DNA of 64,000 bases from Dolomitihabitans soli (GTDB taxonomy: Bacteria > Actinomycetota > Actinomycetes > Streptosporangiales > Streptosporangiaceae): assembly GCF_022213955.1 (NCBI RefSeq), contig NZ_JAKNTW010000003.1, positions 1 to 64,000 of the forward strand, in the 5' to 3' direction. Position numbers and translations under genes: made by a program. The notes below the pieces were generated by a model. The model was not told the origin of the DNA, did no database searches, and worked only from the letters and a program-made list of their open reading frames with translations. Shown here in pieces: positions 47,823-59,689 of this stretch (position 1 is the stretch's first letter; every line of letters starts with the position of its first letter).

Positions 47823-49858
<2,036 letters not shown>

Positions 49859-50003: not shown

Positions 50004-51485
50004 TCAGCGGTCGGCGCCGAAGCCGGTCACTCCTCGCGACTGGTCGAACTGGTGGATCCGGGTCAGCGGCCATTCCGCGTAGGGGAAGGTCCGCAGCACG
50101 TCGCCGTCGAAGGCCTCGGTCACGCCCTCGGCTCGGAGATGCTCGGCCAACACCGCCGTCAGCCGGTCGGCGTCCCCCGGCCGCTCCGCCTGCACCGGCT
50201 CGATCTCGTGCGGATCGGCCGCGAGATCGAACAGCAGCCGGTGCCCGCCGTTGGCCAGCCAGATCAGCTTCAGGCGGCCTTGCCGGACCATCGCCTTGAA
50301 CCGCCGGGTGCCAGGTCGCCCGTGGTAGCCGAACAGCGTTTCCCGGGGCTGCGCCGTACCGGTCAGCAGGCCGAGCAGGTCACTGCCCTGCCGCAGCTCC
50401 GGCTGCCCGGCGGCGGAGGTGGCCAGGCCGAACAGGTCGGTCAGGCAGACCAGCTCGGATCGTCGATCGCCGGCTGCGATCCGCCCCGGCCAGGAAATCA
50501 GGAACGGGACCCGAGCGGACGCCTCGAAGAAACTCTCCTTCTGCCAGCCATGATGATCACCGAGCAGATCGCCGTGATCGGCGAAGAAGCAGATCACGGT
50601 GTTGTCCGCGTCCGGTCTTCGCTCCACCGCGTCCAGCAGGTCGCCGATACAGCCGTCGATGTAGCTGATCTCGCCGTAGTACCGGGCCTTCAGCGTCCGG
50701 GCCCGGTGCGGGTCGACGTCCTCGGCGTAGACCAGGTGGTTCATCCAGGGAATGTGCTGATCGAGGTGATCGATGTCGCGAGCGCCGCACACCGGGTCGG
50801 GCATCCGGTCCGGGTCGTACATCCGGTTGTACGGCAGCGGCGGCGCGAACGGAGGATGAGGGCCGATGTAGGACACGACTCCGAACCAGGGCCGGTCGTC
50901 GTCGTCGGCCATCAGCCCGATCGCCTCCCGGGTGGCCCAGGACTCGACCGTGCAGTCCGCCGGCAATGGGCTGAGCTGCGGCATGTAGTACATGTCGGTC
51001 CGCTCGCCCATCAGCGCCTCGATCCAGTCGTACTCGGGATGTTCGGCCGCGATCCACGACGCGTAGGCGTCCCCGGCCCGCTGTTCGGGGCTGGCGTAGA
51101 ACTCCTCGCTGTGGCGCTGCACTTCGTAGCCGACCGGCGCGTCCCAGGGCGCGGTGTGGAACTTGCCGACTCCCCAGGTGCGATACCCACGGTGGCCCAT
51201 CGCCTCGGCCAGGTAAGGGCCGCAGCATTCCCGGATCGCGGCGTGCCCCCCGTCCGGGACGGTGTTGTCGTACACCCCGGTCCGGGTTGGTTCGCATCCG
51301 CTGCGCAGCGTGTATCGAGCCGGAACGCAGACCGGGGAACTGGAGTACGCGCTGGTGAAGGTGGTCCCGCGAGCGACCAGTCGATCAATGTTGGGCGTCG
51401 CGAGATCGGTGTTGCCGAGCGCCGCGATCGTGTCGAACCGCTGCTGGTCGGTCATCACGAACAGCACATTCGGGCGGGGGGACAT
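50004..51485 (-). CDS. Sulfatase (formylglycine-dependent), type I
   Basis: A 493-residue cytosolic hydrolase of the alkaline phosphatase/sulfatase superfamily. Metal-binding motif NVLFVMTDQQRFDTIAALGN, the modification signature CVPAR in SSPVCVPARYTLRSG (Cys to be oxidised to formylglycine), GVGKFHTAP and the second metal motif FFADHGDLLGDHHGW are intact. It would remove a sulfate ester from a carbohydrate. No signal peptide, so the substrate is desulfated after import. The formylglycine-generating enzyme is not in this window. ATG 51485 lies 25 bases after the upstream sulfatase gene's stop. Last gene of the LacI-controlled operon. Confidence 0.9.
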   Translation of the reverse strand: MSPRPNVLFVMTDQQRFDTIAALGNTDLATPNIDRLVARGTTFTSAYSSSPVCVPARYTLRSGCEPTRTGVYDNTVPDGGHAAIRECCGPYLAEAMGHRGYRTWGVGKFHTAPWDAPVGYEVQRHSEEFYASPEQRAGDAYASWIAAEHPEYDWIEALMGERTDMYYMPQLSPLPADCTVESWATREAIGLMADDDDRPWFGVVSYIGPHPPFAPPLPYNRMYDPDRMPDPVCGARDIDHLDQHIPWMNHLVYAEDVDPHRARTLKARYYGEISYIDGCIGDLLDAVERRPDADNTVICFFADHGDLLGDHHGWQKESFFEASARVPFLISWPGRIAAGDRRSELVCLTDLFGLATSAAGQPELRQGSDLLGLLTGTAQPRETLFGYHGRPGTRRFKAMVRQGRLKLIWLANGGHRLLFDLAADPHEIEPVQAERPGDADRLTAVLAEHLRAEGVTEAFDGDVLRTFPYAEWPLTRIHQFDQSRGVTGFGADR

Positions 51486-51510
51486 GAATGGGTCTCTCCT
51501 CACAGAGCGG

Positions 51511-52869
51511 TCATCGCGTCGGCAGCAGCCGAGCCCGGTCGCCCCGCAGGGCGGACTCGCGGGCGTTCCAGTCATCGACCAGGCCGAGTTCGGTCAGCAG
51601 CCGGTCGCCAGGCGGGAACGCGTCTGCGGATTCCGCCAGCAGCGCGGTCAGCCGGGCGTCGGCCTCGGCGACCCGGCCGGCCGACGCCGGGTCGGCGACG
51701 AGGTTGTCCAGCTGCCAGGGGTCGGTCCGGTGGTCGAACAGCAGCCAGGGCCGGCCGTCAACGGCACGTGCGTAGGTCCACTCGTCGGTGACCATGCCCC
51801 GCCATTCGCCGATCCCCTGGTCGTACCCGTTGTCGAAGCTGACCCAGTTACCGATCAGCAGCTCAGAACGCAGCGACCGGCCGGATCGGAGCCGATCACT
51901 CAGGTCGCGGCCGTACGCCCCGATCGGGGGCAGCCCGAGCAGTCCGAGCAGGGTCGGAGCTAGATCGACCAGACCTAGGAGGCCGGCCGGGCGGTACGCC
52001 GGAACACCGGGCCCATTGATCACCATCGGCACCCGGACGGCCTCCGCGTACGGGCTCTGCTTGGCCCGCAGGCCGTGCGCGCCGAGCATGTCGCCATGAT
52101 CGGAGGTGACCACGATGATCGTGTTCTGGCGTAGCCCGAGCCGGTCCAGTTCCGCCACGATCCGGCCGATCTGCGTGTCCACCGCCGTGATCGCGCTCCA
52201 GTAGAGCCGCTGCACCTCGCGCTGCGCGTCGCTGTCGGGCGTGTTCGGCGGCACCGTCACCCGGTCGATCGGGTAGCCGGCCCGAAGACGCACCGGCACC
52301 GAGTCGTACGGGTCGTGTGGCGGGTTGTAGGAGACCGTGAGAAAGAAAGGAGCCTGCTGCTCGCCGAGGAACTCCAGTGCGAGGTCGGTCTGCACCTCAG
52401 GCTCGTATCCGGTGAACTCGATCCTGGTCGGGCTCTCGGTGCCGACGTAGTAATGACCATCGACGTGATCATGAGAGCAGTCGACCCCGACCCAGTGGTC
52501 GATTCCCGGCCGGGCGGCAGGGGGCACCCATTTGTCGCGGGGCAGTCCGGCCAGATGCCACTTGCCGATCCAGCCGGTCCGGTATCCGGCGTCGGACAGC
52601 GCCGTGCCCAGGGTCTTCAGCCGCGGCGACAGCGGCAGGTCGTTGGCGACCACGCCGTGCTGGTGGGGCAGGCATCCGGTGAGCAGGCTGGCCCGGCTCG
52701 GCCCGCAGACCGGCGAGCTGGCGCAACCGCCGGCGATCGCGGCGCCACCGGCCGCCAGCCGATCGAGGTTCGGGGTGCGGACCTGGGAGACTCTTTCCCC
52801 TTCGAGCCAGCCCTGGTCCTGGCCCCGCCACTGATCGGCCAGCAGAACGACGACGTTGGGAGCTGTCAC
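51511..52869 (-). CDS. Sulfatase (formylglycine-dependent), type I, second enzyme
   Basis: A 452-residue sulfatase. Motifs are NVVVLLADQWRGQDQGWLEG (metal), SSPVCGPSRASLLTG with the CGPSR modification site, WIGKWHLAG and VTSDHGDMLGAHGLRAKQSP (metal). It differs clearly from the neighbouring sulfatase, so the two probably remove sulfate from different positions of one oligosaccharide. No signal peptide. The GTG at 52869 overlaps the stop of the substrate-binding protein gene, which fixes the start. Confidence 0.9.
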   Translation of the reverse strand: MTAPNVVVLLADQWRGQDQGWLEGERVSQVRTPNLDRLAAGGAAIAGGCASSPVCGPSRASLLTGCLPHQHGVVANDLPLSPRLKTLGTALSDAGYRTGWIGKWHLAGLPRDKWVPPAARPGIDHWVGVDCSHDHVDGHYYVGTESPTRIEFTGYEPEVQTDLALEFLGEQQAPFFLTVSYNPPHDPYDSVPVRLRAGYPIDRVTVPPNTPDSDAQREVQRLYWSAITAVDTQIGRIVAELDRLGLRQNTIIVVTSDHGDMLGAHGLRAKQSPYAEAVRVPMVINGPGVPAYRPAGLLGLVDLAPTLLGLLGLPPIGAYGRDLSDRLRSGRSLRSELLIGNWVSFDNGYDQGIGEWRGMVTDEWTYARAVDGRPWLLFDHRTDPWQLDNLVADPASAGRVAEADARLTALLAESADAFPPGDRLLTELGLVDDWNARESALRGDRARLLPTR

Positions 52870-54227
52870 GCCTGGAACTCCTGCGGGTCGACCTCGCCGC
52901 TCTGCACCGCGGCGTCGTAGGCCGTCTGCATCCGCCGGCGCATCGCGGTGAGCGCCGGTTCGAGCGCCGCCGACGGGTCGAGCAGCAGCTTTTCCACCGT
53001 CTGATCGACGCTCTCCCCGTCCACCTGCAGCAGGCCGCCAGGCGTCTTCGGCCACTGCCGATCGAGTTCGGCCGGTCGGAACTGCTGGAGGAGCGCGTTG
53101 TCCTTGATCGCGGCCGAGTCCCAGACGGCGGCGTTCAGCGGCGGCGCCGCCTTCGCCGCCAGCGCCTCCTGGATCCCGTTGCCGACCATCACCTCGAACA
53201 CCGCGGCGGCCTTCTCCGGGTTCTGTGTGGTAGACGAGATCGCGTACGGGTAGCCGGCGTTCATGGGCGAGCGCACCAGCCGCTGCCCGTCCGGCACCGG
53301 CAGCGGGACCGCGATCGCCTTGACCTTGCTGCCCAGATCGGCCAGCGAGGACACGACCGCGCTGCTGGCGATGTACATCCCGGCCTCTCCCTTGCCGAAG
53401 GCGTTGATCGCGACGTCGGCGGTCAGGGTCGCAGCGCCCGGATAGGCCGTCTTGTCGGTGATCATGCTCCGGTAGAGCTCCAGCAGGGGCGCGTACTTGG
53501 TCGACTCGTACTTCTGCGTGGCCGCGTTGAACAGCCCGAACTGGGCCAGCGCCGGGTCGCCCGCCAGCAGCGGAATGTCGACGCTCCACTGCCGGAACCC
53601 GGTCGCCTTGATCGGGATCAGCATGCCGTACGCGTCACCGTTGCCGATCTTGGTGATCGCGGCCGCTGCCCGCCGTACCTCGGAGAAGGTCGCAGGCGGC
53701 GAGTCCGGGTCCAGCCCGGCCTTCTCGAACAGGTCGACGTTGATCACCATCCGGTTGGTGAACGCGGTGGTCGGCACCGCGTACGGCACGCCGCCCCAGA
53801 CGAGCTCGCCGTTCTTCTGGTGGTACGGCGCGGCCTTGTCCAGCACGGCCTTGTCGACCAGATCCGGCAGTGGCTGGACCCACCCGGCCGCGACGAACGC
53901 GCCCAGCTGCGCCGACGGACTGTGGAACAGGTCGGGCGCCCGCTTGGTCTGGAAGCCGAGCCGGACGATCTCTTCGTACTTGTCCGTCGCCTGCGGCTCG
54001 TACCGCACCTCGATGCCGAGCGACTTGCCCTGCTGCTCGTTCCAGGTGCGGAAGAACTCCTGCCGGGCCTTGGCGTGCGCGCCGGCCCGATCCCAGACCA
54101 CGATCGTGGTCAGCTTGTTCGGATCGGCGGAACCGGTCGAGGAGCCGCCGCAGCCGACGAGGGAGACCGCGGCGCCGGCGGCGAGTGTGCCGAGGAAGCC
54201 GCGGCGGGTCAACGAGGAATCGATCAT
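52866..54227 (-). CDS. ABC transporter substrate-binding lipoprotein (carbohydrate)
   Basis: A 453-residue extracellular binding protein (family 1, MalE-like). It has a Tat-like signal LTRRGFLGTLAAGAAVSLVG with lipobox LVGC. The mature part follows the MalE pattern: LTTIVVWDRAGAHAKARQEF, YEEIVRLGFQTKRAPDLFHS, VPYAVPTTAFTNRMVINVDL, FGKGEAGMYIASSAVVSSL and GYPYAISSTTQNPEKAAAVF. It gives the importer its specificity, probably for a sulfated oligosaccharide given the two sulfatases that follow. Confidence 0.9.
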   Translation of the reverse strand: MIDSSLTRRGFLGTLAAGAAVSLVGCGGSSTGSADPNKLTTIVVWDRAGAHAKARQEFFRTWNEQQGKSLGIEVRYEPQATDKYEEIVRLGFQTKRAPDLFHSPSAQLGAFVAAGWVQPLPDLVDKAVLDKAAPYHQKNGELVWGGVPYAVPTTAFTNRMVINVDLFEKAGLDPDSPPATFSEVRRAAAAITKIGNGDAYGMLIPIKATGFRQWSVDIPLLAGDPALAQFGLFNAATQKYESTKYAPLLELYRSMITDKTAYPGAATLTADVAINAFGKGEAGMYIASSAVVSSLADLGSKVKAIAVPLPVPDGQRLVRSPMNAGYPYAISSTTQNPEKAAAVFEVMVGNGIQEALAAKAAPPLNAAVWDSAAIKDNALLQQFRPAELDRQWPKTPGGLLQVDGESVDQTVEKLLLDPSAALEPALTAMRRRMQTAYDAAVQSGEVDPQEFQA

Positions 54228-54240
54228 CAGGGGGCCTTTC

Positions 54241-54897
54241 TCAACCAGAACGAACCGGACCGGACCCGATCCGGCCAGTGGGGATGGTGTCTCGAACCGC
54301 GGCGGCTCGATCGCGAAGTGTGATCACGAAACTGGCCGTGGCCGCCGGCAGCGCGATCAGCAGCAGCGGCCCGAGGTACGGCACGCGGGTCGCCAGGAAG
54401 GGCCCGGCGCCGGCGGCGGCGATCACGGCCACCGTCGCGGCCACCGCCAGCTCGATCCGCGACAGCGCCAGCAGATAGGCCGTCCGCAGCGCCGCGACCG
54501 TACGGCCGGTGCGTTCGAGGCTCACCACCGACCACGGGGCGACCAGCAGCCAGGTCACTCCGGCCACCACGCTGGTGATCAACACCAGCTGGCCGTAGGG
54601 GCCACCGGGTGATGGCCCGAACAGGCCGACGAGCACCAGTACGGCGATGCCGAGATGGCAGCCGGCCAGCCGCAGGGCGGGCAGCAGCCAGCGGCCCAGG
54701 AACCGCAGCGTCTCGCCCGGTCCGAGGGCGGCCTCGCCGTCGGCGTGCCGGCGTTGCTGGGCGATCAGCCACAGGGTGGCCGCCGGCGCGGTGATCACGG
54801 GAAGGCTCAGCAGCACCCAGCAGCAGCTGGTCCAGGCCCAGAACCACCAGCGGGACCAGCCGCGGAGCAGGGCGCTGTCCGGGGCGAACAGGGTCAT
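54241..54897 (-). CDS. YesL/DUF624-like membrane protein
   Basis: A 218-residue protein with five hydrophobic helices. The N-terminus LLRGWSRWWFWAWTSCCWVL followed by LLSLPVITAPAATLWLI is typical for DUF624/YesL proteins, which are found in oligosaccharide uptake operons of Gram-positive bacteria and have no defined biochemical role. It overlaps the MalG-type permease (ATGA) and is followed 13 bases later by the binding protein gene. Confidence 0.78.
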   Translation of the reverse strand: MTLFAPDSALLRGWSRWWFWAWTSCCWVLLSLPVITAPAATLWLIAQQRRHADGEAALGPGETLRFLGRWLLPALRLAGCHLGIAVLVLVGLFGPSPGGPYGQLVLITSVVAGVTWLLVAPWSVVSLERTGRTVAALRTAYLLALSRIELAVAATVAVIAAAGAGPFLATRVPYLGPLLLIALPAATASFVITLRDRAAAVRDTIPTGRIGSGPVRSG

Positions 54898-55802
54898 CCC
54901 TTCACCGACCCGTCCGTCCAGCCGCGGACGAAGTGCCGCTGCAGCACGATGAAGATCACCACGATCGGCACCAGCGCCATGTTCGCGCCGGCCAGCACCG
55001 TGTTGTACGGCGTCATTCCCTCGGCGGCGTCATACTGCAGCGCGCTCACGCCCACGACCAGAGTGCGCAGGTCGGGGGCGGCGAGTGAGAACACCAACGG
55101 CACCTGGTAGTTGTTCCAGGACGCCTGGAAGCCGAGGATCACCGTGGTGGCGAGGATCGGCCGCATCATCGGGAAGGCGATCCGCCAGTAGGTGCCGAAC
55201 AGCCCGCAGCCGTCGACCCGGGCCGCGTCCTCCATCTCGGTGCCGAGGCCGAGCACGAACGCCTTGATCAGGAACACGTGCACCAGCATGATCCCGGCCA
55301 GCTGGACCAGCGCGATCCCGAGCAGGTTGTCCAGGCCCAGCGCCTCGGCGATCACGTACTGCGGGTAGAGCGTCGCCGTGGTCAGGCCGACGAACAGCGT
55401 GCCGACGTACAGGCCCTCGAGGAACCGCTGGCCGCGGAGCCGGCGCCGGGCCAGCACGTACCCGGTCATGCTGGAGGCGAGCGTGTCCAGCACCACGACC
55501 AGGGCCGTGACGATCAGGCTGTTGACGAAGTAGCGGGAGAAGTCGGCCGTGGTCCACGCCTGGAGGTAGGTGCCCCACTCCCAGACCCGGGGCAGGATTC
55601 CGCCGTTCCTGCTGAGGATCTGGTCCAGCGGCGACACCGAGGCGAACAGGCCGAAGATGAGTGGCGAAAGCATGATCAACGCCGCCGCGACCAGGATCAC
55701 GTGCAGCAGCACGGTCAGCGGGCGGATTCTGCGTCCGCGCCGGGCCGGCACGGCAGGGGCGACCGTCCGGCCGGCGGGTTCGGTGATGACGGGCGTGCTC
55801 AT
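54894..55802 (-). CDS. Carbohydrate ABC permease, MalG type
   Basis: A 302-residue permease with six membrane helices. The cytoplasmic EAA motif that docks with the ATPase is seen in EMEDAARVDGCGLFGTYWRI followed by AFPMMRPILATT. No ATPase gene lies in the operon. Actinomycete importers of this class usually share a global MsiK-type ATPase. Start 55802 overlaps the stop of the MalF-type gene. Confidence 0.92.
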   Translation of the reverse strand: MSTPVITEPAGRTVAPAVPARRGRRIRPLTVLLHVILVAAALIMLSPLIFGLFASVSPLDQILSRNGGILPRVWEWGTYLQAWTTADFSRYFVNSLIVTALVVVLDTLASSMTGYVLARRRLRGQRFLEGLYVGTLFVGLTTATLYPQYVIAEALGLDNLLGIALVQLAGIMLVHVFLIKAFVLGLGTEMEDAARVDGCGLFGTYWRIAFPMMRPILATTVILGFQASWNNYQVPLVFSLAAPDLRTLVVGVSALQYDAAEGMTPYNTVLAGANMALVPIVVIFIVLQRHFVRGWTDGSVKG

Positions 55803-56734
55803 GCCGCGGTCCTCCCGCTCCGGTTGATCCGCAGATAGGCCACGGAGATGATGCCGACGATCACGCTCGCGGTGATGCCGAGCGCGGCGGCGTACCCGAT
55901 CTGCGGCACCGATTCCGGCTCGAAGAAGAACCGGTAGAGGTAGGTGAACATCACCTCGGTACTCCCGGCCGGGCCACCGTCGGTGAGCGTCTTGACCAGG
56001 TCGAAGCTGCGCAGGGTGCCGATGATCGAGATCAGGATCACCACGCGCGTCACCGGGGCCAGCAACGGCAGCACGATGTGCCGCAGCGTCGACCGGTGAC
56101 CGGCGCCTTCCAGCGACGCGCTCTCCAGCAGCTCGTTCGGGATCGTCATCATGCCGGCGAAGAAGAGCAGCAGGTTGATCCCGAGGTGGGCCCAGACGCC
56201 GACCCCGATCAGGCTGACGAGCGCGCCGCCGGCCTCGCCCAGGAACCGGATCGGCTCCTCCAGCAGGCCAGACCCGGTGAGCAGCTGGTTGATCGGCCCG
56301 CCGGTCTCCCGCAGCAGGAAGACGAAGATGATGCCGATGATCGCCGGCGACAGCACGTGCGGCAGAAACAGGATCGTCCGGTACACGGTGCCGGCGCGAA
56401 CCCCACGGAAGAACACGTAGGCCAGCACCAGCGCCAGCGGGATCTCGATGACCAACCGGCCGAACCCGAACTTCAGCGTGTTCAGCACCGCCAGCCACCA
56501 CTGTTCGTCGCCGATCATCCGCTGATAGTTGGCCACCCCGGTGAACCGCAGCGCCGAGAACCCGTTCCACCGCTGGAAGCTGAACCACAACAGCCAGCCG
56601 ATCGGCAGCAGCGCGAAGGCGAGATACGGCAACAGGCTCGGCAGCAACATGAGACGACCGACACCGTCCTCGCGCCGGTGCCACTGCGCGCGACGCGGCG
56701 TGGACTGCCGTGGAGAGCGGACAACTGTGGACAT
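55799..56734 (-). CDS. Carbohydrate ABC permease, MalF type
   Basis: A 311-residue permease, partner of the MalG-type subunit. Six helices begin with LMLLPSLLPYLAFALLPIGW. The EAA loop is NELLESASLEGAGHRSTLRH, followed by IVLPLLAPVTR. It is the first gene of the importer/sulfatase operon. SD AAGGGG precedes the ATG, and the palindrome TTAGATCGATCTAA lies about 75 bases upstream. Confidence 0.92.
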   Translation of the reverse strand: MSTVVRSPRQSTPRRAQWHRREDGVGRLMLLPSLLPYLAFALLPIGWLLWFSFQRWNGFSALRFTGVANYQRMIGDEQWWLAVLNTLKFGFGRLVIEIPLALVLAYVFFRGVRAGTVYRTILFLPHVLSPAIIGIIFVFLLRETGGPINQLLTGSGLLEEPIRFLGEAGGALVSLIGVGVWAHLGINLLLFFAGMMTIPNELLESASLEGAGHRSTLRHIVLPLLAPVTRVVILISIIGTLRSFDLVKTLTDGGPAGSTEVMFTYLYRFFFEPESVPQIGYAAALGITASVIVGIISVAYLRINRSGRTAA

Positions 56735-56809
56735 CCGTGCCCCTTCCTTGGTCGAGTCCGCCGGTCGGGCTCGCGCCGATCCGGCCTCACCGACTCGGTT
56801 CGGGACAAC

Positions 56810-56823
56810 TTAGATCGATCTAA
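56810..56823. promoter_or_regulatory. Palindromic LacI-type operator of the importer operon
   Basis: Perfect 14-bp palindrome TTAGATCGATCTAA with a central CG, as in LacI-family operators, between lacI and the first permease gene. Two direct copies of GGTCAACCAT (56831-56840 and 56858-56867) lie on the side of the lacI gene and may be part of the promoter. Confidence 0.65.
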
Positions 56824-56904
56824 ATTGGCGGGTCAACCATATCGATAAAAACCGGTAGGTCAACCATGAAATAGGCGGGCCGGCTTACTGGCAGGCGAGA
56901 TCGC

Positions 56905-57945
56905 TCAGTGACAGCCGCAGGACGCGCGAGCGTGGATCTCGGGCGCCGGAGGGGTACAGCTGCCCTCGACCGGCATCCCCATCTCGGCCAGCAGCACCCG
57001 GCCGCAGACCCGGCCCAGCTCGACCGGGTCGGTGGCGACGCTGCTGATCGACGGGTTCCACATCGCCGACTGGTGGAGGTCGTCGATGCCGAGCACCGCA
57101 CAGGGCGCCGCGTCGGGGGTACCGAGCCGCAACGCCTTGGCCAGGCCGTAGGCCACGTTGTCGCTGTGACACAGCACCCCGTCGGGCGGCGGCCCGGCCG
57201 CGAGCAACTCGGCGGCACGGCGGTACGCGGCGTCCGGGGTCGCCTCCAGCGGCTCCGACCAGGTCGCGTCCCAGTCGGCAGCGGCTTCGGTGACCGCCCG
57301 CCGGAAGGTCTCCATCCGGCCGACCCGCGGCGAGGCCAGCGGGTCGCCGCCGAAGTAGGCCACCCGGCGGCAGCCGTGCACGGTGATCAGGTGCTCGGCA
57401 CCGAGCCGGCCGATCGCCGCCTCGTCGGTGCCGACGAACGGCAGTTCCACGCCGTCGATGTGCCGCAGCAGCAGCACCGTCGGCAGGCCGCTGCGGCGTA
57501 TGTCGGCGAAATGGTCCGCGGTCGAGGTCAGCGCGGGGATGGTGACCACGCCGGCCGCGCGGTGCCCCACCAGAGACCGGAGGATCTGCCGTTGCAGGTC
57601 CACCCGGTCCACCGTGTTGGCGATCATGACGAACAGGCCGACCTCCCCGAGCACCTCCTGCACGCCCAGCGACACCTCGGCGACGAACGGGTTCATCACG
57701 TCCGGCATCACCAGCCCGACCAGGTCGTTGCGCTGGGTCCGCAGGTTGGCGGCGGCCTGGTTGTAGATGTATCCCAGCCGCTCGGCCTCGACCAGGACAG
57801 CGCTCCGGGTCGCTTCTGACACCAGCGGGCTGTTCCGCATCACCAGCGAGACGGTGGCCCGGGACAGGCCGAGCGCGTTGGCCACATCGAGCATCCGTAC
57901 CCGGCGCGCACCGAGCCGGTCGTCCTGCTCCCCGTCTTCTCGCAT
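56905..57945 (-). CDS. LacI family transcriptional regulator
   Basis: A 346-residue repressor. The N-terminal LacI helix-turn-helix reads RMLDVANALGLSRATVSLVM, and the hinge region follows at YIYNQAAANLRTQRNDLVGL. The periplasmic-binding-protein-like domain includes LVMPDVMNPFVAEVSLGVQE and a final SISSVATDPVELGRVCGRVL. ATG 57945 has GGGAGGTG upstream. The C-terminal CGCH tail is unusual. It precedes the importer/sulfatase operon on the same strand. The palindrome after it is the probable target. Confidence 0.93.
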   Translation of the reverse strand: MREDGEQDDRLGARRVRMLDVANALGLSRATVSLVMRNSPLVSEATRSAVLVEAERLGYIYNQAAANLRTQRNDLVGLVMPDVMNPFVAEVSLGVQEVLGEVGLFVMIANTVDRVDLQRQILRSLVGHRAAGVVTIPALTSTADHFADIRRSGLPTVLLLRHIDGVELPFVGTDEAAIGRLGAEHLITVHGCRRVAYFGGDPLASPRVGRMETFRRAVTEAAADWDATWSEPLEATPDAAYRRAAELLAAGPPPDGVLCHSDNVAYGLAKALRLGTPDAAPCAVLGIDDLHQSAMWNPSISSVATDPVELGRVCGRVLLAEMGMPVEGSCTPPAPEIHARASCGCH

Positions 57946-58259: not shown

Positions 58260-59570
58260 CTATCCGAGCACTGGGTAGTTCGCGCGGAACACGTTGTGCG
58301 GGTCACGGGCCCGCTTGATCTCCCGCAGCCGTGCGAGCGCGCTGCCGGAGAAGGACTTCGCCGCCGTGTCACCGGGGGACAGCATGGTGTACGGCTTGCG
58401 GCCGCTGATGTAGGCCTCCAGGTCGGCCACGACCTCGGCCTGCTTGGCGCGCGTCGCATCGGCCGCGTGCGGCAGGCCGAGACCCAGCAGGCCGAGCAGG
58501 TACGGCTCAGCCACCGCGCCGCTCGCACCGGCCCCGCCGCCCGGCTCGGCGAGCGCCCCGCCCAGGTGCCTGATCTGCACGTTGATAAGCGGTTCGACCG
58601 GGTTGGCCAGCAGGAGCTCCACCGCGTCCGCGTCCAGGCCGGTGAGCAGCTCCGCACGAGCGAGTGATGGGGCCGGATCGGTGGGTTCGGCGGCGATGTC
58701 ACCCAGGTCGGCAACCGGGACGACGCCGCGGCTGTCGGAGATCGCGCCCTCGATCTTGTCGATGCGCGCCAGCAGGTCCTTCCCCTGAGCCGCCTCACCC
58801 AGGTAGGCCAGATCCAGCGTGACCATCGGCGACGCGCCGGGGGGCTGGAGCCGGTTGATCCAGACACTGAGTTCACGCGGCGCCCCGGCGGTGATCTCCA
58901 GGAACGCGTCGTACACCTCCCTGGTCCGGTGCTCCGGCCAGATCACGCGCCCGCCGTACAGGACTGGCGCGGGATACAGCTCGAGTTCGAGGGCGGTCAC
59001 CACCGCGAAGTCCCCGCCACCGCCGCGCAGCGCCCAGAACAGCTCGGGATCGGACTCGGCGGTCACCCGGCCCGGCTCGCCATCGGCGTCCACGATGTCG
59101 ATAGCCCGCACGCTGTCGGAGGCGAAGCCGTACTTGCGGCTGAACCAGCCGACCCCACCGCCCAGGGTGTAGCCGGTCACGCTGACCCCCGGCGCGCTGC
59201 CGGACAGGCCGGTCAGACCCAGCGGACCGGCCGCCGCCAGCACCTGCCCCCACTTCACGCCCGCGCCCACCCGGACCACGCGCTCCTCCGCGCGTACCTC
59301 CACCTCGTTCAGCAGGCCCGTACGCAGCAGGATCAGGCCTTCCACATCACCGGAGGCGCCATGCCCGCTCGGCTGCGCGGTCACCGTCATACCCGCCCGC
59401 CGCGCGTAACGCACGAGCGTCGCCACGTCATCGGCATCCGCGGCCTCCGTCACGGCCGCCACCGGCTGCCTGACGGTCAGATTCCACGCGGTGGCCGCCT
59501 GTTCGAAGCCGTCCTCATCGGGCAGGAGCACGTGCCCCTTCAGGACACCGCGCAAATCGTTGATCGTCAT
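58260..59570 (-). CDS. FAD-binding (BBE/VAO-type) oxidoreductase
   Basis: A 436-residue flavoprotein. The PCMH-type FAD domain covers about 35-210 (VAAVTEAADADDVATLVRYA, the possible flavin-linking His in PSGHGASGDVEGLILL, and TLGGGVGWFSRKYGFASDSV followed by WALRGGGGDFAVVT). The C-terminal berberine-bridge (BBE) tail reads LREIKRARDPHNVFRANYPV. The Cys that forms the second flavin bond in bicovalent members is not obvious, so a single link through His is likely. The substrate is an alcohol, sugar or alkaloid-like compound, unknown here. ATG 59570 has AAGGAG upstream. No biosynthetic genes are adjacent. Confidence 0.88.
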   Translation of the reverse strand: MTINDLRGVLKGHVLLPDEDGFEQAATAWNLTVRQPVAAVTEAADADDVATLVRYARRAGMTVTAQPSGHGASGDVEGLILLRTGLLNEVEVRAEERVVRVGAGVKWGQVLAAAGPLGLTGLSGSAPGVSVTGYTLGGGVGWFSRKYGFASDSVRAIDIVDADGEPGRVTAESDPELFWALRGGGGDFAVVTALELELYPAPVLYGGRVIWPEHRTREVYDAFLEITAGAPRELSVWINRLQPPGASPMVTLDLAYLGEAAQGKDLLARIDKIEGAISDSRGVVPVADLGDIAAEPTDPAPSLARAELLTGLDADAVELLLANPVEPLINVQIRHLGGALAEPGGGAGASGAVAEPYLLGLLGLGLPHAADATRAKQAEVVADLEAYISGRKPYTMLSPGDTAAKSFSGSALARLREIKRARDPHNVFRANYPVLG

Positions 59571-59689
59571 CGTCGTCTCCTTTTTCGAGTTCTCACAAAT
59601 GCGGGGGAACACCGTTGCTGCGCCCTGACCGCGCTGTTCTGCTGCTGGATGGTGGGACGCTTCAAAGCGCTCCGGCCGCCGGACCGCGT

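Follow-up and report, generated by a model that had tools for sequence, protein, structure and literature searches.

The use of sulfated polysaccharides has been studied best in marine and gut bacteria, which desulfate their substrates outside the cytosol. The present analysis concerns a seven-gene locus in a 64,000-nucleotide stretch of the genome of the actinomycete Dolomitihabitans soli (contig NZ_JAKNTW010000003.1, positions 1 to 64,000; hereafter the window), which encodes a LacI-family repressor, an ATP-binding cassette (ABC) sugar importer and two sulfatases, SulfA and SulfB. The locus very probably forms a LacI-repressed cassette for substrate binding, import and two cytosolic desulfations, after which ordinary catabolism would take over the sugar, with LacI released by a ligand. 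The glycosulfatase clusters of Bifidobacterium breve UCC2003 are the nearest actinobacterial counterpart and reportedly employ other types of regulator and transporter. They resemble the cassette in belonging to an actinobacterium, in encoding intracellular sulfatases and in handling a cross-fed sulfated sugar (Egan et al. 2016); the likeness is one of description, and unlike the cassette's enzymes, theirs act on N-acetylglucosamine (GlcNAc)-6-sulfate, as the accessible part of a review has it (PMC7326374). Import followed by desulfation, which the earlier note had called little studied in soil actinomycetes, is thus itself already known in actinobacteria. Beyond this review, searches for an actinobacterial import-then-desulfate or ulvan system, in a literature with few subscription papers, returned an endocrine review and a few other papers, PMC8857213 among them. 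The other close comparison is with the ulvan utilization loci built around polysaccharide lyases of family PL40 (Uly1040 of Alteromonas macleodii; Formosa agariphila), which hold several S1 sulfatases according to the portion of the source available (PMC12915356). SulfB orthologues of two Opitutia adjoin PL40-type lyases, whereas the actinomycete cassette has no lyase, glycoside hydrolase (GH) or outer-membrane receptor, and both of its sulfatases look cytosolic. Three things are new as far as the literature searched shows: the cassette together with its operator, the pair of sulfatase groups, and a SulfB clade that crosses phyla and has rhamnose/ulvan surroundings.

The features of the locus are as follows.
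56905 to 57945, minus strand: LacI-family repressor of 346 amino acids (Pfam LacI and Peripla_BP_3)
56807 to 56836, minus strand: putative promoter TTGACC-18-TAAGTT with a weak −10 box, overlapping the operator (TTGAC invariant in 9 aligned loci)
56810 to 56823, no strand assigned: perfect 14-bp palindrome TTAGATCGATCTAA, proposed LacI operator (found in 10 of 10 operon loci)
55799 to 56734, minus strand: ABC sugar permease 1, UgpA/MalF type (PF00528; NCBIfam UgpA-like match below cut-off)
54894 to 55802, minus strand: ABC sugar permease 2, UgpE/MalG type (PF00528; NCBIfam UgpE-like match below cut-off)
54241 to 54897, minus strand: small membrane protein of 218 amino acids, weakly "YesL-like" (kept in 10 loci)
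52866 to 54227, minus strand: substrate-binding lipoprotein (SBP) of the SBP_bac_1 type with a twin-arginine signal (PF01547, 6.8e-30; RRGFLG and LVGC in the translation)
51511 to 52869, minus strand: SulfA, predicted cytosolic formylglycine-type sulfatase with CGPSR (PF00884; predicted structure)
50004 to 51485, minus strand: SulfB, predicted cytosolic formylglycine-type sulfatase with CVPAR (PF00884; predicted structure)

Read on the minus strand from 57945 to 50004, the gene order is LacI, permease 1, permease 2, membrane protein, SBP, SulfA and SulfB. Four-base overlaps join permease 1 to permease 2, permease 2 to the membrane protein and SBP to SulfA, and gaps of 13 bp ahead of SBP and 25 bp between SulfA and SulfB separate the remaining genes downstream of LacI. 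This agrees with the single overlapping operon of uptake, membrane-protein and sulfatase genes described in the earlier note. LacI is probably a transcription unit of its own because the 170-bp gap between it and permease 1 holds a likely promoter and operator. The importer, also predicted there, shows the Pfam signature of a CUT1-type ABC sugar importer, namely, two PF00528 permeases and a PF01547 binding protein, the latter with an RRGFLG motif and a lipobox cysteine in LVGC as read from the translation. The seven-gene unit encodes neither an ATPase nor a glycosidase, the second absence having been pointed out before; the ATPase is presumably a shared one of the MsiK type, encoded elsewhere. 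The designation "YesL-like" for the membrane protein, which goes by position and shape, is weak, as the window protein has no Pfam DUF624 (PF04854) match and only one of four orthologues scanned touches this family, below its cut-off (E 0.037; 14.7 versus 24.2 bits).

Both sulfatases belong to the formylglycine family S1, with PF00884 scores of 173.8 and 146.4 bits against a gathering threshold of 25 (E 7e-51 and 1.5e-42), and both carry the CxPxR modification motif. The motif cysteine is invariant in SulfB (Cys53; 26 rows of the alignment) and present in at least 90% of 37 rows for SulfA (Cys55). The genome contains four PF03781 matches for the formylglycine-generating enzyme (FGE) that the earlier note had asked to be located, the best of them (5.2e-84) on contig C12. 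The coding sequences of SulfA and SulfB begin four or five residues ahead of the first strand of the predicted models, and the ATG of SulfB at 51485 is preceded by GAGGAGAG, a clear ribosome-binding site. A start of SulfB farther upstream, at 51575, would lengthen the protein by 30 residues, which contain no hydrophobic stretch. Because of these starts and this ribosome-binding site, both enzymes should be cytosolic and without signal peptides (judged by eye), as had been predicted.

The Lys/His pair of sulfatases is invariant in SulfA (K103/H105; 37 rows) and SulfB (K108/H110; 26 rows), where phosphonate hydrolase has Tyr105/Thr107 in the part of the source available (PMC4014121, Table 2). 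Since the pair is kept in every aligned row, SulfA and SulfB fall outside the phosphonate group. The GW-X13-WYHN hairpin, which binds choline in choline sulfatase as far as the accessible description goes (PMC9063841), is missing from the SulfB sequence by eye. Scores against NCBIfam models lie far below the curated cut-offs for choline sulfatase (TIGR03417, 433.45 bits; SulfB 220.8, SulfA 153.1), PehA (SulfB 152 of 900) and the Enterococcus faecium-type manganese arylsulfatase (NF052527; SulfB 139.9 of 850 bits). The sequence and fold neighbors of SulfB do include choline sulfatases and phosphonate hydrolases; with the Lys/His pair in place of Tyr/Thr, the hairpin absent from SulfB and these scores, it is nevertheless highly improbable that the two enzymes are a choline sulfatase or phosphonate/phosphodiester hydrolases and not sugar sulfatases, side activities being possible. 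Phosphonate monoester hydrolase (S1_0) is ruled out for both enzymes by the pair and for SulfB also by the PehA cut-off, and choline sulfatase is ruled out for SulfB by the missing hairpin and its score. The earlier note had named a phosphonate-hydrolase or non-carbohydrate grouping as the outcome that would overturn its reading; neither the phosphonate group (both enzymes) nor choline sulfatase (SulfB) was found.

In the structure comparison, the models (pLDDT 94.0 for SulfA and 92.4 for SulfB) place SulfA closest to the Bacteroides fragilis sulfatase 2qzu (Z 48.9, 2.2 Å, 410 residues). The chondroitin/dermatan 4-O-sulfatases 6j66, 6s21 and 8di0 are also among its closest folds (Z 46 to 47), although merely 26 to 32% identical to it, and 6s21 is taken here to be BT3349 of family S1_27. 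BT3349 is endo-acting and periplasmic in the available part of its description (PMC10154612), whereas SulfA looks cytosolic. For SulfB, the top VIA-align match is the E. faecium arylsulfatase 9koq (Z 45.6, 2.7 Å, 451 residues), and phosphonate hydrolases score Z 42 and lower. BT1918 (S1_46, PDB 7oz8) is the closest match of SulfB by sequence and by Foldseek, with 27 to 29% identity (VIA-align Z 43.8, 2.5 Å, 441 residues); unlike SulfB, it is a periplasmic enzyme of the heparin/heparan pathway that acts on O3 of GlcNAc, as far as the same partial source tells (PMC10154612). The relation of the two enzymes to S1_27 and S1_46 thus appears as nearness in sequence and fold, identity to the nearest solved structures is merely 24 to 33%, and structure alone leaves the substrate unsettled.

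These matches could suggest that the cassette imports and desulfates a sulfated amino sugar or glycosaminoglycan (GAG) fragment, such as N-acetylgalactosamine-4-sulfate or GlcNAc-3- or 6-sulfate, obtained by scavenging glycans of animals or microbes. The 4-O-sulfatase folds near SulfA, the reported action of BT1918 on GlcNAc and the GlcNAc-6-sulfate described for Bifidobacterium would fit such a substrate. Identity is merely 25 to 32%, however, and SulfA matches 6hr5, an S1_25 module of the ulvan pathway, with a score that is only slightly lower (Z 45.3, 2.3 Å, 363 residues). Several SulfB relatives sit with rhamnose or ulvan-lyase genes, no GAG lyase was recognized among the selected SulfB neighbors scanned, and GH88 is absent from all 10 operon genomes, so that a substrate of this kind is unlikely.

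Because the top structural match of SulfB is an arylsulfatase, a sugar as its substrate rests on gene context and not on structure. The same match, together with two sulfatases in a unit that has no sugar catabolic gene, would also be compatible with sulfur scavenging, in which the cell would take up a saccharide, an aryl sulfate or another organosulfate chiefly for its sulfate and not for carbon. Soils may indeed be poor in free sulfate. The LacI-type regulator and the sugar-type transporter speak against this explanation, as does a unit without any gene known to respond to sulfate starvation, and it is rather improbable.

The proposed operator TTAGATCGATCTAA lies in the gap between LacI and permease 1, ahead of the latter, and no other sequence in the window comes within three mismatches of it (0.28 sites expected by chance on average). 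It is kept in the Microlunatus pair of operon genomes as well, in which this gap has otherwise diverged. In an alignment of nine loci, the TTGAC and operator columns are invariant. Since the TTGAC box lies 17 to 18 bases ahead of TAARTT (TAAGGT in two loci), TTAGATCGATCTAA, the likely LacI operator, overlaps a plausible promoter; a consensus promoter scan chose another site, at 56863 to 56836. The footprint evidence for LacI repression of the cassette is strong, with LacI itself being the presumed binder, and the earlier prediction of LacI control is borne out by the position of the gene and by the conserved palindrome. Scans allowing at most one mismatch across 1.82 Mb of partly overlapping loci, or at most two across about 475 kb of the 10.8-Mb D. 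soli genome outside the window, found no further site. A second operator that would flag a distant glycosidase was thus not seen in these 475 kb, which span 14 other PF00884 matches, five GH78 genes, a GH106 gene and the four FGE places.

In the proposed mechanism, the SBP would capture a small sulfated saccharide outside the cell, and the two permeases would import it, powered by an ATPase encoded elsewhere. The FGE of the genome would activate SulfA and SulfB, which would strip sulfates in the cytosol, presumably at two different positions. The desulfated sugar would be broken down by ordinary catabolic routes, and LacI would be freed from TTAGATCGATCTAA by the ligand or by a product. The substrate, the sharing of an ATPase, the order of desulfation and the inducer are what we infer here.

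The distribution of the cassette was examined with a four-sequence SulfA profile scanned against one genome per species (84,980 species). Among the best 80 of 564 relatives, nine genomes have at least 74% identity to SulfA, seven of Nonomuraea and two of Microlunatus, and the nearest match is Nonomuraea cypriaca (91%). All nine contain the other genes of the unit in the same gene order. LacI is visible in 9 of the 10 loci; at L037, the contig begins after it. The flanking genes differ (inspected by eye for eight of the other nine genomes, at seven loci and at L030, in the genome of L081), except for a small gene common to the two Microlunatus just downstream (L039, 13643 to 14143; L042, 12902 to 13399). 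No hidden glycosidase was seen in or beside the cassette in these flanks. Because the same unit occurs in two taxonomic orders with different flanks, it appears to have moved between genera. At 1e-80, SulfB was found in none of 395 further actinobacterial genomes, and only 1 of 99 other relatives has an orthologue, within the same cassette, the remaining matches being at most 39% identical. The cassette is rare outside the Nonomuraea/Microlunatus group.

SulfB orthologues of 55 to 61% identity were found in 7 of the 50 searched genomes carrying SulfA relatives, belonging to Hydrogenedentota, Acidobacteriota (two), Gemmatimonadota, Planctomycetota and Verrucomicrobiota (two Opitutia). A further one (56.5%) lies on a plasmid of the haloarchaeon Halocatena marina (NZ_CP109982; two near-identical records counted once). 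In the SulfB tree, these cross-phylum orthologues and the cassette enzymes form one clade (100/100) with an actinomycete subclade (100/100), and the other aligned sulfatases are at most 38% identical. Genes of rhamnose or ulvan type surround SulfB in five of the eight nonactinomycete loci. In the two Opitutia, the gene directly beside SulfB is a homologue of the PL40 ulvan lyase Uly1040 (E 4e-167 and 4e-168, at least 800 residues). For Uly1040, the accessible part of the source names His485 and Tyr305 as catalytic base/acid, with His487 and Asp358, as well as Asn245 and Trp246 (PMC12915356); by hand count, the Opitutia lyase at L128 keeps five of these six (His485, Tyr305, His487, Asp358 and Asn245) and has His in place of Trp246. 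The use of sulfated methyl-pentoses has been described in marine Verrucomicrobiota, as far as the available text goes (PMC8857213). One acidobacterial locus combines a pair of GH106 genes with a SulfA relative and with a gene resembling L-rhamnonate dehydratase (315 bits; curated cut-off 393), and a Bryobacterales locus has a GH78 gene about 6 kb away.

The Halocatena plasmid resembles the cassette in combining its SulfB orthologue with a SulfA relative (42.7%), neither with an evident signal peptide, and with ABC transporter genes. The N-terminal fragment of a rhamnosidase lies 3 kb from its SulfB, and GH78 and a gene homologous to rhamnose-glucuronate lyase (1e-30) lie at 18 to 27 kb, with the SulfA relative adjoining GH78 at 18 kb; GH10 and xylose dehydrogenase genes are also present. 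It differs from the cassette in being archaeal, in these added GH78, lyase-like and xylan/xylose genes, in a spread of about 35 kb and in a transporter annotated as dipeptide type. Nothing in the literature searched linked Halocatena to ulvan. On another plasmid, that of Halomontanus rarus (NZ_CP119798; L136), sulfatases make up 13 of the 22 annotated features in a stretch of about 31 kb.

Because five of the eight nonactinomycete SulfB loci hold PL40, rhamnosidase or rhamnose-glucuronate-lyase-like genes, the favored substrate of the cassette, by a modest preference, is a sugar containing sulfated L-rhamnose, as in ulvan-like rhamnose-uronate polysaccharides. As a control, SulfB was compared with other sulfatases of the seven bacterial genomes. 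Of the SulfB genes, 4 of 7 have a rhamnosidase or PL40 gene at a distance of 10 kb or less, and among the other sulfatases listed the figure is 5 of 147 (P = 0.0002); a count without the two Opitutia genomes gave 2 of 5 versus 1 of 70 (P = 0.01).

Several observations weigh against a sulfated rhamnose substrate. With rhamnosidases alone, the control falls to 2 of 7 versus 4 of 147 (P = 0.024), and its P values serve as a guide only because 150 of 359 matches were listed as control sulfatases (minus 3 inside SulfB clusters), the gene classes were picked after the loci had been viewed and the two Opitutia loci are related and not independent. In three of the eight SulfB loci, neither a rhamnosidase nor a PL40 gene lies within 10 kb, Pfam having been applied to selected neighbors. 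Among solved structures, the closest are those of GAG-type sulfatases and, in the case of SulfB, also of an arylsulfatase, choline sulfatases and phosphonate hydrolases, not of rhamnose sulfatases. The cassette itself contains no rhamnose gene or glycosidase, the D. soli genome not having been searched genome-wide for rhamnose catabolism, and GH78 is common, with two to eight matches in each of the 10 operon genomes and none inside the cassette. GH88/GH105 and PL40-like lyases are absent from all 10. This last absence speaks against lyase-type degradation by the cassette actinomycetes and makes lyase-made unsaturated oligosaccharides an unlikely food; it argues for the import of a monosaccharide or of a saturated saccharide, either of which other organisms may release.

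Rhamnose genes do occur near SulfA relatives elsewhere. G062, an actinomycete from the same order, has a SulfA relative of 46 to 47% identity and what looks by eye like the beginning of a binding-protein gene. About 3 kb from them, beyond a LacI-like gene, lie genes for L-rhamnose isomerase and rhamnulose-phosphate aldolase/dehydrogenase, each scoring above its curated cut-off. The two operon-bearing Microlunatus have a rhamnose isomerase gene adjoining a GH78 gene. Among neighbors of SulfA homologues, tblastn detected GH106 in two places (L098 and L108) and weak GH78 pieces in four (L056, L058, L071 and L093).

A broader scenario for the sulfated rhamnose substrate is possible and is put forward tentatively. 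Actinomycetes of soil, some with names that refer to deserts, caves or walls, may carry a self-contained, horizontally moved cassette for doubly sulfated ulvan-like rhamnose saccharides of land algae or cyanobacteria, which would be desulfated intracellularly. SulfB would then define a sulfatase clade for that sugar common to bacteria and a haloarchaeon. If true, two uncharacterized sulfatase groups would gain a specificity, and there would be a hint that polymers of sulfated rhamnose serve as a source of carbon in terrestrial settings. The proposal is directly testable, as the Gram-positive cassette is compact and comes with an operator of its own and a pair of predicted cytosolic sulfatases.

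Further sulfatase loci were noted in D. soli and in other genomes. In D. soli, the best FGE gene lies beside a second set of LacI, SBP, two permeases and a sulfatase (contig C12, 1 to 16000; L035), with a further sulfatase at 522 to 2282. On contig C43, outside the window (about 111 to 123 kb; L034), genes for SBP_bac_5, an aldolase of the dihydrodipicolinate synthase (DHDPS) type, a sulfatase, a BNR/laminin-G protein, a GH106 rhamnosidase and a DUF6351 protein lie together. In Microlunatus parietis (L042, 14685 to 20929), about 2 kb past the cassette, there is a separate sulfatase with a ROK-like regulator (by eye), an SBP and two permeases. In Phytoactinopolyspora halophila (L047/L031), a SulfA relative adjoins LacI, an enolase-superfamily dehydratase, a DHDPS-type aldolase, a short-chain dehydrogenase/reductase and importer genes, which may represent an oxidative sugar route after desulfation; assignment of the gene at L031, 5973 to 7118, as a rhamnonate dehydratase is unsupported (80 bits, with another isomerase as best structure match). 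The genes that border the cassette in the window, FAD-linked oxidase-like (58260 to 59612) and monooxygenase-like (47823 to 49463) by eye, seem unrelated to it.

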